Below are positions 51,408-55,783 of a stretch of DNA of 64,000 nucleotides, one piece after another. This stretch comes from Arthrobacter alpinus (lineage in GTDB: Bacteria > Actinomycetota > Actinomycetes > Actinomycetales > Micrococcaceae), in the NCBI RefSeq assembly GCF_001445575.1, contig NZ_CP013200.1:2356001-2420000 (forward strand), written 5' to 3'. Every line of letters begins with the position of its first letter. Position 1 is the first letter of the stretch. The position numbers and the translations under genes were made by a program. The notes below the pieces were generated by a model. That model was not told where the DNA came from, did no database searches, and worked only from the letters and a program-made list of their open reading frames with translations.

Positions 51408-52922
51408 ATGTCTCAGTATGTAATTGCCATTGACCAGGGAACCACCAGCAGCCGCGCCATCGTGTTTGACCATGACGGCAACATTGTCTCCACCGGACAG
51501 CTGGAGCATGAGCAGATTTTCCCGAAGGCTGGCTGGGTTGAGCACAACGCAACCGAGATCTGGAACAACACCCGCGAGGTGATTGGCACCGCGCTGGCCC
51601 AGGCCAACCTGACACGCCACGATATTGTGGGCGTGGGCATCACCAACCAGCGTGAAACAGCCGTGGTCTGGGACAAGAACACCGGTGTGCCGGTCTACAA
51701 CGCCATCGTGTGGCAGGATACCCGCACGCAGAGCATTGTGGATGAACTGGCCGCAGATGGTGGCGTGGAGCGCTTCAAGGCCAAGGTCGGCCTGCCGCTG
51801 GCCACGTACTTCTCCGGAACCAAAATTAAATGGATTCTGGACAACGTCGAAGGTGCCCGTGAAAAGGCGGAAGCTGGCGATCTGCTCTTTGGTAACACCG
51901 ATTCCTGGGTGACCTGGAACCTGACCGGTGGAACCGATGGCGGCGTGCACATCACCGATGTCACCAATGCCTCGCGCACCATGTTCATGGATCTGGAAAG
52001 CCTCACATGGGACGAAGAAATCCTGGGCATCTTCGGTGTGCCGAAGTCCATGATGCCGGAGATCAAGTCCTCCTCCGAGGTCTACGGCCACGTGCACGGC
52101 AGCCAGCTGCTGCGCGAAGTTCCCGTTGCCGGCATCTTGGGTGACCAGCAGGCTGCAACGTTCGGTCAGGCTGCATTCAACCAGGGCGAAGCCAAGAACA
52201 CCTATGGCACCGGCTGCTTCCTGATCTTCAACACGGGTGAAGAAATTGTCCACTCGAAGAACGGGCTGCTGACCACCCTCGGTTACAAGCTTGGCGACGC
52301 CGCTCCGCACTACGCGTTGGAAGGCTCCATAGCCGTCACCGGTTCACTCATCCAGTGGTTGCGCGACAACATCGGCATGATTAAGTCCGCTCCCGAAGTT
52401 GAGGAGCTGGCCGCAGCGGTCGAGAACAACGGTGGCGTCTACATCGTCCCCGCATTCTCGGGCCTGTTTGCACCGTACTGGCGTGCGGATGCCCGCGGTG
52501 CCATCGTGGGTCTGACCCGCTTTGTGAATAAGAACCACATTGCCCGGGCCGCCTTGGAAGCCACTGCGTTCCAGACCCGCGAGGTGCTGGACGCCGTCAA
52601 CGCCGACTCCGGTGTTGACCTAACTGAGCTCAAGGTCGACGGCGGCATGGTCGCCAATGACGCGCTCATGCAGTTCCAGGCTGACATCCTCGGTGTCCCG
52701 GTTATCCGTCCTAAGGTCACCGAAACCACAGCCTTGGGTGCAGCGTATGCAGCCGGTCTGGCCGTGGGCTTCTGGAAGGACCTGGGCGAGTTGTCCAACA
52801 ACTGGTCCGAGGACAAGCGTTGGGAACCGCAGATGGAGGCCGCTGAGCGCGATCGCCAGATGCGCCTCTGGAAGAAGGCCGTCACCAAGTCCATGGACTG
52901 GGTTGACGAGGACGTCCTCTAA
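51408..52922 (+). CDS. glpK: Glycerol kinase
   Basis: It phosphorylates glycerol, trapping it in the cell. The 504 residues show [34 protein letters not shown], the glycerol-binding [19 protein letters not shown] and the FGGY signature near [21 protein letters not shown] 51408 follows AAAAGGAAAC. There is no EIIA-type regulator nearby, so inducer control by the divergent regulator is more likely. Confidence 0.97.
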
Positions 52923-52948
52923 TACGGGGCAACGGCATTAAATGCTTG

Positions 52949-52995
52949 ACGGCGGGGCGCCACGTAACTGTGGTGTCCCGCCGTCGTGCTTTTAA
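52949..52995 (+). terminator. Intrinsic terminator after glpK
   Basis: ACGGCGGGGCGCCAC pairs with GTGGTGTCCCGCCGT (two wobble or mismatched positions), followed by CGTGCTTTTA. It closes the glp operon. Confidence 0.8.
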
Positions 52996-53111
52996 CTTCT
53001 GTGCTGCGCACAACTGGACATGAGTTCGGCGCCAGTGGACAACATGCACAAAACCCACGGCGGGTTCGGCGCATAGGGGAGCAGTCCGGCGTCGAACACC
53101 ACGTTTCAGCC

Positions 53112-53142
53112 TTGGTACTTAGTTTTTTAAGTGCGGTAAAGT
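53112..53142 (+). promoter_or_regulatory. Promoter of the leuS leader
   Basis: A possible -35 TTGGTA (53112-53117) and -10 TAAAGT (53137-53142) are 19 bp apart. The -10 is exactly 6 nt before GTG 53149, so the leader peptide would be read from a leaderless transcript. The rest of the 52996-53111 stretch shows nothing I can name. Confidence 0.5.
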
Positions 53143-53148
53143 AAAGGG

Positions 53149-53175
53149 GTGCATACATTTCTCCTTCTTATTTAG
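53149..53175 (+). CDS. Putative leucine leader peptide upstream of leuS
   Basis: Nine codons read M-H-T-F-L-L-L-I-stop, with three consecutive Leu codons (CTC CTT CTT) just before the end. A GC hairpin with a T run starts 21 nt after the stop, and leuS follows. This is the layout of a classical attenuation leader: low charged tRNA-Leu would stall the ribosome on the Leu run and change the RNA fold so that leuS is transcribed. The start codon has no ribosome-binding site and probably lies at the 5' end of the RNA. Confidence 0.7.
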   Translation: MHTFLLLI

Positions 53176-53196
53176 CCGCAATTTATAAAGCGGTGC

Positions 53197-53224
53197 GCCC
53201 CTTGCCATGTCGAGGGGCTTTTGT
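53197..53224 (+). terminator. Attenuator terminator in the leuS leader
   Basis: GCCCCTTG pairs with CGAGGGGC (one wobble) around the loop CCATGT, followed by TTTTGTGTG. It lies before leuS and after the leader peptide. CCGC (53176-53179) and GCGG (53190-53193), or GGGGTGC (53146-53152) with GCGCCCC (53195-53201), could form alternative pairings. Confidence 0.7.
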
Positions 53225-53278
53225 GTGTAAACGGTCAGAAGGATCAAGAAGCCAACAATGATTGAAAAGGCAGGGTAC

Positions 53279-55783
53279 GTGAGCGTGCAGTCTCAGACTG
53301 AAGAGAACAGCGAAGAAGGCGTCTACAGTTTCGCCTCGATGGAAGCCAAATGGCCGGCCATCTGGGACGAGCTCAAGGTCTTCACCCCCCTCGACGACGG
53401 CTCGAAAGAACGCCGCTACGTCTTGGACATGTTCCCGTACCCCTCGGGCGACTTGCACATGGGCCACGCCGAGGCGTTTGCCATGGGAGACGTTGTCTCG
53501 CGTTACTGGCGCCAGCTGGGCTACGACGTGCTGCACCCGATTGGCTGGGACTCCTTCGGCTTGCCCGCTGAGAATGCTGCCATCAAGCGCAATGCGCACC
53601 CCAGCGAGTGGACGTACGCCAACATTGACACGCAGGCGGAGTCGTTCAAGCGCTACGCCATTTCCGTGGACTGGTCACGCCGTTTGCAGACCTCAGACCC
53701 CGAGTACTACCGGTGGACGCAGTGGCTGTTCAAGCGCTTCCACGAGAAGGGCCTGGCATACCGCAAAAACTCACCCGTGAACTGGTGCCCCACGGACCAG
53801 ACAGTGCTGGCCAATGAACAGGTTGTCAACGGCGCCTGCGAACGCTGCGGCACCATTGTCACCAAGAAGTCCCTGAACCAGTGGTACTTCAAGATCACCG
53901 ACTACGCCGACCGCCTGCTGGACGACATGGACGCACTCAAGGGCCACTGGCCGGACCGCGTGCTGGCCATGCAGAAGAACTGGATTGGCCGCTCCGAAGG
54001 CGCCCACGTCACGTTCGTGATTGAAGCAGCTGGAGAAGAGAAGGCACAGCAGGAACTGACAGTCTTCACCACCCGTCCGGACACCCTGTACGGAGCAACG
54101 TTCTTCGTGGTCGCCGCCGACGCGCCCCTGGCACTGGAGCTGGTGACTGCCGAGCACGCTGAAGCGCTGAGCGATTACCGCGAGCAGGTCAAGGCTCTGA
54201 GCGACATTGAACGCCAGTCCACCGACCGCCCCAAGTCGGGTATCTTCACCGGCCGTTACGCCGTCAACCCGCTGACCGGTGAGAAGCTGCCCGTCTGGGC
54301 CGCCGATTACGTGCTGGCCGATTACGGCACCGGCGCCATTATGGCCGTGCCTGCTCACGATCAGCGCGACCTCGATTTCGCCAAGGCCTTCGACCTGCCC
54401 ATCCGCGCAGTGCTGGACACCGGCATGGAAGATCCCGCCGAGACCGGCATCGCCTCCACAGGCGAAGGCACGCTCATCAACTCCGGCGAGTTGAACGGCC
54501 TGTCCAAGGCCGAGGGAATCCCTGCCGCGATTGAAGTTCTGGAAAAGTTGGGCACGGGCGAGAAGTTCATCAACTTCCGCCTGCGTGACTGGCTGCTGTC
54601 CCGGCAGCGTTTCTGGGGCACACCCATCCCGATCATTCACTGTGCCGACTGTGGCGAGGTCCCGGTTCCAGACGATCAGCTGCCCGTCCGCCTGCCGGAT
54701 AATCTGCGCGGCGAGGATCTGTCCCCGAAGGGCACCTCACCGTTGGCTGCCGCCGCGGACTGGGTCAATGTTGAGTGCCCCTCCTGTGGCAAGCCCGCAA
54801 AGCGCGACACCGACACCATGGACACGTTCGTGGACTCATCCTGGTACTTCCTGCGCTTCACCTCGCCGGACTACACCGAGGGCCCGTTCGATCCGGCCAA
54901 GGTCAACGACTGGATGCCCGTAGGCCAGTACGTGGGTGGCGTTGAGCACGCTATTTTGCACCTGCTCTACGCCCGCTTCTTCACCAAGGTCATCCACGAT
55001 CTGGGCCTGCTCGAAGCCACCGAACCCTTCAGCGCGCTGCTGAACCAGGGCCAGGTACTCAACGGCGGCAAGGCCATGAGCAAGTCCCTTGGCAACGGTG
55101 TTGATCTGGGGCAGCAGTTGGATAAGTACGGGGTGGATGCCATTCGCCTCACCATGGTCTTTGCTGGGCCTCCCGAGGACGACGTCGACTGGGCGGATGT
55201 TTCGCCGTCCGGCTCGGCCAAGTTCCTGGCCCGCGCATGGCGTCTGGCCCGCGATGTAGCCAGTGAACCGGGCGCCCCGGCCACCAGCGGCGACGCCGCA
55301 CTGCGTTCCCTGACGCACCGCACGGTTCACGACACCAAGGTCTTGCTGGAAGGCCACAAGTTCAACGTTGTGGTCGCCAAGCTCATGGAATTGGTCAATG
55401 CGACCCGTAAGGTCATTGACTCCGGTGCCGGCGCTTCCGATCCTGCGGTGCGTGAAGCTGCCGAGGCAGTGGCCATTGTCCTGAGCCTGTTTGCGCCGTA
55501 CACGGCAGAAGACATGTGGGACACCTTGGGCCACCCGGCCTCGGTTGCCAACGCGGGCTTCCCTGCCGTCGATGAGGCATTGCTGGTGGAACAGAGCATC
55601 ACCGCGATCGTTCAGATCCAAGGCAAGGTCAAGGACCGTCTCGAGGTGTCCCCGGACATCACCGAAGAGGAGTTGCGTGAACTGGCTTTGGGCTCTGCCG
55701 CCGTTCAAAAAGCACTTGATGGCCGTGGCATCCGCACTGTGATCGTGCGTGCGCCTAAGCTGGTCAATATTGTTCCTGCCTAA
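53279..55783 (+). CDS. leuS: Leucyl-tRNA synthetase
   Basis: A class I synthetase charging tRNA-Leu; 834 residues. The HIGH-type motif is LHMGHAEA (about 58-65), the CP1 editing domain includes [13 protein letters not shown], two zinc-type Cys pairs (CADC; CPSC) are present and the KMSKS-type motif is AMSKSLGNG (about 600). GTG 53279 (MSVQSQ) fits the start of Arthrobacter LeuS proteins; an in-frame ATG at 53258 behind AGAAGGATC would add seven residues and is also possible. Confidence 0.97.

Follow-up and report, generated by a model that had tools for sequence, protein, structure and literature searches.

A putative leucine-sensing attenuator upstream of leuS in Arthrobacter alpinus with a conserved hairpin abutting the terminator

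Results and discussion

Organization of the leuS locus

The window, a 64,000-nt stretch of Arthrobacter alpinus DNA, contains the leucyl-tRNA synthetase gene leuS downstream of glpK, and a short leucine-rich ORF, two hairpins (designated P1 and P2), and a T-rich tail were located between the two genes (Table 1). The closest named relative judged by LeuS was Arthrobacter silviterrae (91%). The GTG start codon assigned to leuS is preceded by GGCAGGG, which was kept in all 23 loci of the same genus, and an alternative in-frame ATG at 53258 was present in 19 of these 23 loci. A strong terminator-like hairpin with an 18-bp stem was found downstream of glpK in the terminator scan; leuS probably has its own promoter because the upstream gene carries this hairpin of its own.

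The preliminary description of this DNA had assigned a leucine leader peptide and attenuator to positions 53112..53278. Both lie inside these limits, although position 53112 itself belongs to the upstream promoter area and not to the leader. The ORF running from GTG to TAG, the GC hairpin behind it (P2), the T run, and the succession to leuS were recovered exactly as described, to the base. The leader peptide has eight residues (MHTFLLLI; nine codons with the stop codon TAG at 53173-53175). P1, which had been missed, opens with the last base of this stop codon, and two bases separate it from P2, which reads GCCCCTTG-CCATGT-CGAGGGGC.

No Rfam family was matched at the leader site, and the only hits were two weak matches (E-values of 0.7 and 0.99) at 52934-53000. 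The Rfam T-box model gave no match in 52000-54500 at E-values up to 1. The 80-nt leader folded better than its dinucleotide shuffles (z = -2.92), with two of the 200 shuffles doing as well.

Table 1. Features of the glpK-leuS region, in window coordinates
Feature	Position	Strand	Details
glpK	51408-52922		Gene upstream of the leader
Terminator-like hairpin	52947-52986		Downstream of glpK; 18-bp stem
-10 box TAAAGT	53137..53142	+	6 nt upstream of the start codon; predicted +1 at 53149
Leader ORF	53149..53175	+	GTG CAT ACA TTT CTC CTT CTT ATT TAG (M-H-T-F-L-L-L-I-stop); kept in relatives
P0, possible helix GCAUACA/UGUGUGU	53151..53157 with 53222-53228	+	From the fold of the 80-nt leader
Control codons CTC CTT CTT	53161..53169	+	At -14, -11, and -8 from P1
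P1 hairpin	53175..53194	+	Arms 53175-53179 (GCCGC) and 53190-53194 (GCGGT); 10-nt loop; -6.1 kcal/mol
P2 intrinsic terminator hairpin	53197..53218	+	8 bp; -13.2 kcal/mol; terminator scan agrees
T-rich tail TTTTGTGTGT	53219..53228	+	Most frequent 10-mer 3' of P2 (46/157 leaders)
leuS, leucyl-tRNA synthetase	53279..55783	+	GTG start; TIGR00396 leuS_bact, 957.7 bits (cut-off 548.4)

Distribution of the leader among relatives

Upstream ORFs with at least three leucines in five codons were searched for in 80 named leuS loci and 30 loci from relatives. A covariance model (R1) was built from 24 leaders, and a wider model is referred to as R2. R1 gave one match per genome in all 23 genomes of the genus and, under stricter filters, matched 104 of 197 genomes of the family, corresponding to 18 of 32 genera. 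Of the 148 aligned leaders, 147 were located within 450 nt of leuS, and the remaining one (L168) precedes leuA. The leucine run had been judged hard to explain by chance, and its conservation had been proposed as a check; it was kept in close and distant relatives alike, which bears out that judgement. The strict filters left 93 of the 197 family genomes without a match, and the leader may therefore be dispensable or replaceable. The phylum search using R1 detected the leader in at least 17 of 296 genomes, which is a floor because only 13 candidates were scored per genome. The class search using R2 yielded matches in 47 of 98 genomes; the fetched stretch contained leuS in 40 and only ilvB or cimA in six, and no leuS was found in the stretch of one match (L249).

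Leader-bearing loci were identified in Arthrobacter, Pseudarthrobacter, Nocardioides, Marmoricola, Microlunatus, Actinomadura, Nonomuraea, Thermoactinospora, and Actinophytocola. Neither the ORF/promoter scan nor R1 detected a leader in the examined loci of Kocuria, Yaniella, Acaricomes, Microbacteriaceae, Nocardia, Thermobifida, and Nocardiopsis. The scan candidate from Subtercola was judged false; in all, three of the 59 scan candidates (L041, L046, and L062) were rejected by eye. The leuS locus of Glutamicibacter (L010, about 1255-1345, ATG at 1271) carries an ORF with a single leucine (MNSQHNLA) and a terminator-like hairpin, perhaps representing a decayed leader when inspected by eye.

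Predicted leaderless transcript

The spacing of the -10 box places the putative transcription start at the start codon of the leader, from which we infer a leaderless RNA in A. alpinus. This is in line with the earlier suggestion that the start codon lies at the RNA 5' end, and the predicted start does not fall past 53175. Among 168 unique leaders (from 173, including 26 class-level ones whose search pattern required a -10 box), TANNNT was found 12 nt upstream of the start codon in 131, 13 nt upstream in 35, and was absent in 2; these counts are partly ascertained, because the box lies within the region covered by the models and was demanded by one filter. The scan performed with no promoter requirement detected a leucine-rich ORF together with TANNNT in 48 of 110 loci, at a distance of 12 nt in 44, 13 nt in 3, and 14 nt in 1.

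Leucine control codons

Codon positions were anchored on the P1 column of the model and not on leucine. Among 140 unique leaders, leucine was encoded at -14 in 124, at -11 in 118, and at -8 in 136, leaving 16, 22, and 4 leaders, respectively, with another residue. The codon at -8 was CTT in 117 and CTA in 12 leaders (together 129 of 140), both of which are rare in the leuS genes of the leader-bearing named loci (2.1% and 0.1%, respectively, of 1659 leucine codons). CTC and CTT accounted for 285 of the 378 leucine codons over the three positions, compared with 17% in the leuS genes. This suggests that the leader would sense the tRNA whose anticodon is assigned to CTC and CTT. The +1 frame at the -8 position also reads leucine in 98 of the 140 leaders; thus, part of the CTTA conservation is possibly at the RNA level.

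Conserved hairpins P1 and P2

Both hairpins were supported by compensatory changes in two alignments (A2 and A3), which were fitted to the structure in a manner that favours support for P1 and P2. P1 showed two-sided changes in 6 of 7 pairs in A2 and 4 of 7 pairs in A3, with 95.9% and 93.6% of the cells paired, respectively; the corresponding paired cells of P2 were 99.4% and 100%. Taken together, the two hairpins comprise 14 pairs, of which 11 showed compensatory changes in A2 and 8 did so in A3. The covariation score was 0.282 in A2 (0.131 when shuffled and at most 0.075 when slid) and 0.257 in A3 (0.142 and at most 0.097), and these scores were reached by none of 500 shuffles.

The position of P1 was also conserved. 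Among the 147 leaders obtained from the 148 matches by excluding one with no ORF, the stop codon began 2 nt upstream of P1 in 116 and 7 nt inside P1 in 23, while it was found elsewhere, between -6 and +25 relative to P1, in the remaining 8. The gap between P1 and P2 was 0-2 nt in 152 of 157 leaders (the 168 unique leaders excluding 11 unreadable ones), though the P1 loop ranged from 3 to 53 nt.

The tail TTTTGTGTGT was near-invariant in many family leaders, for which a pause-like step is one guess, and the 17-mer GAGGGGCTTTTGTGTGT had one exact occurrence in the A. alpinus genome. The fold of the 80-nt leader further contained P0, which pairs the head of the leader with the tail; such pairing possibly hides the start codon once the RNA has been terminated. 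P0 exceeded shuffles in its own genus only (mean z = -1.86, n = 21). Leaders from elsewhere gave no such excess, whether they had a GTGTGT tail (64 leaders, z = -0.04) or a different one (72 leaders).

Search for an antiterminator

An antiterminator was described earlier as not obvious, and we likewise found no conserved one that takes up a terminator arm as in trp-type attenuators; even in a large set of sequences, the textbook structure could not be seen. The best rival pairing named at that time (GGGGTGC with GCGCCCC) was not confirmed, since it involves positions 53146-53148, upstream of the predicted +1, and was not kept in the 5' ends of relatives inspected by eye.

Helices of at least 4 bp touching a P2 arm were listed for 113 leaders (134 of the 147 were parsed, and 113 remained after redundancy removal) as possible pairings. 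The leucine codons could pair with the P2 3' arm in up to 78 of the 113 leaders, AGCC with GGCU (4 bp) in 88, the P2 3' arm with bases past the tail in 56, and the 3' arms of P1 and P2 with each other in 38; pairings onto the tail involved the P1 5' arm in up to 48 and the leader head in 40. Each of these helices requires bases of the P2 3' arm or beyond, and therefore none of them can form before P2. The pairing of the leucine codons (CUNCUU) with the P2 3' arm (GAGGGG) was rejected because the ribosome would cover the bases involved and a CUG codon disrupts the helix. A second start codon behind GAGGGG was also considered, and it was missing in some Streptomyces-type tails (L166, L167, and L243).

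When the P1 5' arm was masked, the P2 5' arm was still free in 108 of 132 leaders; of the 147 leaders, 13 had no terminator by the pattern of this test, and 2 were duplicates or had no leucine. Comparison with loop shuffles showed no excess pairing of the P2 5' arm with either the loop or the 3' arm of P1 (mean z = +0.40 over 157 leaders). A pair extending P1 towards P2 was rarer than in shuffles (28 observed versus 36.0 ± 2.6), a comparison among related sequences and hence not a strict test. The two hairpins of Corynebacterium glutamicum share a GCC (PMC11857589, available text), whereas P1 and P2 had no overlapping base in 146 of 157 leaders.

Comparison with known leaders

The leuL2 leader of Streptomyces lividans TK24 encodes 12 residues (MRAVRLLLSEPR) before leuS, and it is reported to be leaderless, with a hairpin and uridines behind it (PMC8079986), which supports the original reading of the present element as a leader-peptide attenuator. 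It is the same element as the window leader. The model that matched Streptomyces-type leaders was built on Micrococcaceae and other leaders, including that of the window, and seven of its eight matches in one genus of the same class (f18/g51) carry MRAVRLLLSEPR before leuS, while the eighth differs by one residue. The window leader differs from leuL2 in being shorter (8 residues), with its TAG touching P1, and the available text on leuL2 (PMC8079986) contains neither P1 nor the distance from the leucine codons to P1 described here.

Attenuators of leuS were predicted in 2005 for S. avermitilis and S. coelicolor (Seliverstov 2005, PMC1262725). As described in the accessible part of that paper, they likewise consist of a leader peptide with leucine codons and a terminator before leuS, but they were called classical, with an antiterminator hairpin, whereas no conserved base-stealing one was found here. 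The ilvB leaders of Mycobacterium tuberculosis, in which replacing the LVVI codons with Ala abolishes induction (PMC13236596), and of C. glutamicum, in which the antiterminator of ilvBNC adjoins the terminator (PMC11857589), have control codons, a stop codon, and a hairpin preceding the terminator in common with the leuS leader, judging from the portions of these accounts available; they differ in their branched-chain codons and in the genes that follow. The LEU element before leuA comprises a leucine leader and a pseudoknot (PMC1262725), and leuL1 of S. lividans has no typical terminator (PMC8079986). In having a terminator, the leuS leader is unlike the LEU element. Canestrari and colleagues (2020) are said to have described leaderless polycysteine short ORFs of mycobacteria as amino-acid-responsive attenuators; these resemble the present leader, itself predicted to be leaderless, in being leaderless short ORFs but encode cysteine, precede other genes, and are referred to in a citing paper as translation attenuation.

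No report of a leuS leader outside Streptomyces was found in the open-access full-text literature searched, and leuS was not mentioned in the available portions of PMC4833913 and PMC2965389. The leuS leader attenuator itself was already known from Streptomyces; the covarying P1 and the strict geometry between codons and hairpin are added here, and the Streptomyces leader is extended to Micrococcaceae and many other families of Actinomycetes. The missing components of actinobacterial attenuators are an old puzzle (PMC1262725, available text) that becomes directly testable by point mutations. The element also bears on the regulation of transcription by ribosomes that start on leaderless RNAs.

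Proposed mechanism and alternatives

Judged by its sequence, the element is in all likelihood a leucine-sensing attenuator of leuS, and more of the leucine-charging enzyme would very probably be made when leucine is short. As an explanation of the whole, we consider a ribosome-mediated leaderless attenuator in which P1 opposes P2 to be reasonably probable. When Leu-tRNA is sufficient, the ribosome would proceed to the stop codon and cover the P1 5' arm, leaving P2 free to form and ending transcription before leuS. When Leu-tRNA is scarce, the ribosome would be held on the leucine codons, and P1 would form wholly or partly. P1 would then stand right at the foot of P2, which has to close at the polymerase exit, and would thereby hinder P2 and allow readthrough into leuS. 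The weakest step is that P1 would oppose P2 by crowding rather than by base-pair theft; given the conserved abutment of the two hairpins, crowding at the base of P2 is the simplest link.

The footprint of a ribosome extends to about +15 from its P site. With the A site at -14, -11, -8, and TAG, the ribosome would cover 0, 2, 5, and 11 nt of P1, for which the mean stability of the P1 region over 157 leaders was -21.1, -16.1, -9.3, and -5.1 kcal/mol, respectively. P1 was preferred as the antiterminator because it would be present with an early-waiting ribosome and mostly absent once the ribosome has finished, and because the same logic has been proposed for ilvB1 of M. tuberculosis (PMC13236596, available text) and a similar one for ilvBNC of C. 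glutamicum (PMC11857589, available text). Against this role, a ribosome at -8, which holds the best conserved and rarest codon, would already cover five conserved nucleotides of P1, and nothing would be left of the window P1, which has only 5 bp; moreover, the two hairpins draw on separate bases. We regard the case for P1 as the antiterminating element as evenly balanced.

The main rival retains the same attenuator but has P1 favour termination, either as a pause hairpin that slows the polymerase inside P2 or by stacking, so that a stall on the rare last leucine codon would remove P1 and the polymerase would run through. We kept this reading as a serious though rather unlikely one. The near-invariant leucine at -8, with its mostly rare codons, fits it better than antitermination by P1, and it agrees with the compatibility of P1 and P2. 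A pyrimidine-G step, which is part of the polymerase pause consensus, was present 10-12 nt past P1 in 120 of 157 leaders by raw count. However, the removal of P1 would free no antiterminator partner, as the masking test and the loop shuffles indicated for the P2 5' arm, and P1 would be lost to an even greater extent once the ribosome reached the stop codon.

An improbable alternative to attenuation with P1 opposing P2 is that Rho is denied access to the leader by the stalled ribosome, with P1 and P2 mainly guarding RNA ends. It requires no antiterminator, and in M. tuberculosis, Rho and translated uORFs reportedly shape premature termination, but the strong P2 hairpin and U-rich tail, whose conservation extends well outside the family, argue against it. 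A leucine run arising by chance ahead of an ordinary 5' terminator, or of one serving the upstream gene, is refuted by the conservation of the leader and by the separate hairpin behind glpK, even if a lone nine-codon ORF with three leucines is weak evidence by itself.

Related leaders before ilvB, cimA, and leuA

Matches of R2 were also observed before genes other than leuS. Eight loci with the P1/P2 layout and branched-chain codons precede ilvB (L255-L259, L261, L277, and L279), as assigned by tblastn to L261, which is itself an acetolactate synthase locus by NCBIfam. Attenuators of ilvB are already known, and the shared layout may reflect a common design. Six further loci with this layout precede the citramalate synthase gene cimA (L260, L262, L272, L275, L276, and L278), as assigned by tblastn to L275 (TIGR00977), with the leaders near oriented position 200. 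The literature search yielded no relevant paper on a leader-peptide attenuator of cimA. TANNNT at the leaderless spacing was found in one of the nine ilvB and cimA leaders read and in none of the cimA leaders among them. We tentatively propose, as a possibility that we hold to be somewhat doubtful, a class-wide design that would be leaderless in front of leuS and employed again for ilvB, cimA, and at least one leuA. No antiterminator would take a terminator arm; instead, a hairpin at the stop codon would abut the terminator base, and a ribosome standing on a rare codon 8 nt before this hairpin would gate it.

The five readable cimA leaders all contain Ile-Ile (MTYSLIIS, MQSALIIT, MAQALIIG twice, and MAQTLIIE). 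The leucine leader of L168 (MSQNLLLT, oriented about 1501-1609) shows the P1/P2 layout before leuA (TIGR00973), unlike the LEU element. The ilvB locus of the A. alpinus genome (G000:C1:1846158-1846296; L280 and L281) gave a weak match (E-value of 1.3, model positions 33-102) with the leader MQRELLAVIS; its last control codon, ATT, is located 8 nt before a P1-like stem recognized by eye (GCGCGUG/CACGUGC), which is followed by a terminator. The leuA gene of the same genome (L287, about 605-680) is preceded by a leucine leader of the LEU-element type (MRTGMLLLSCRGEASNPLM), with TAGGGT 12 nt before its GTG.
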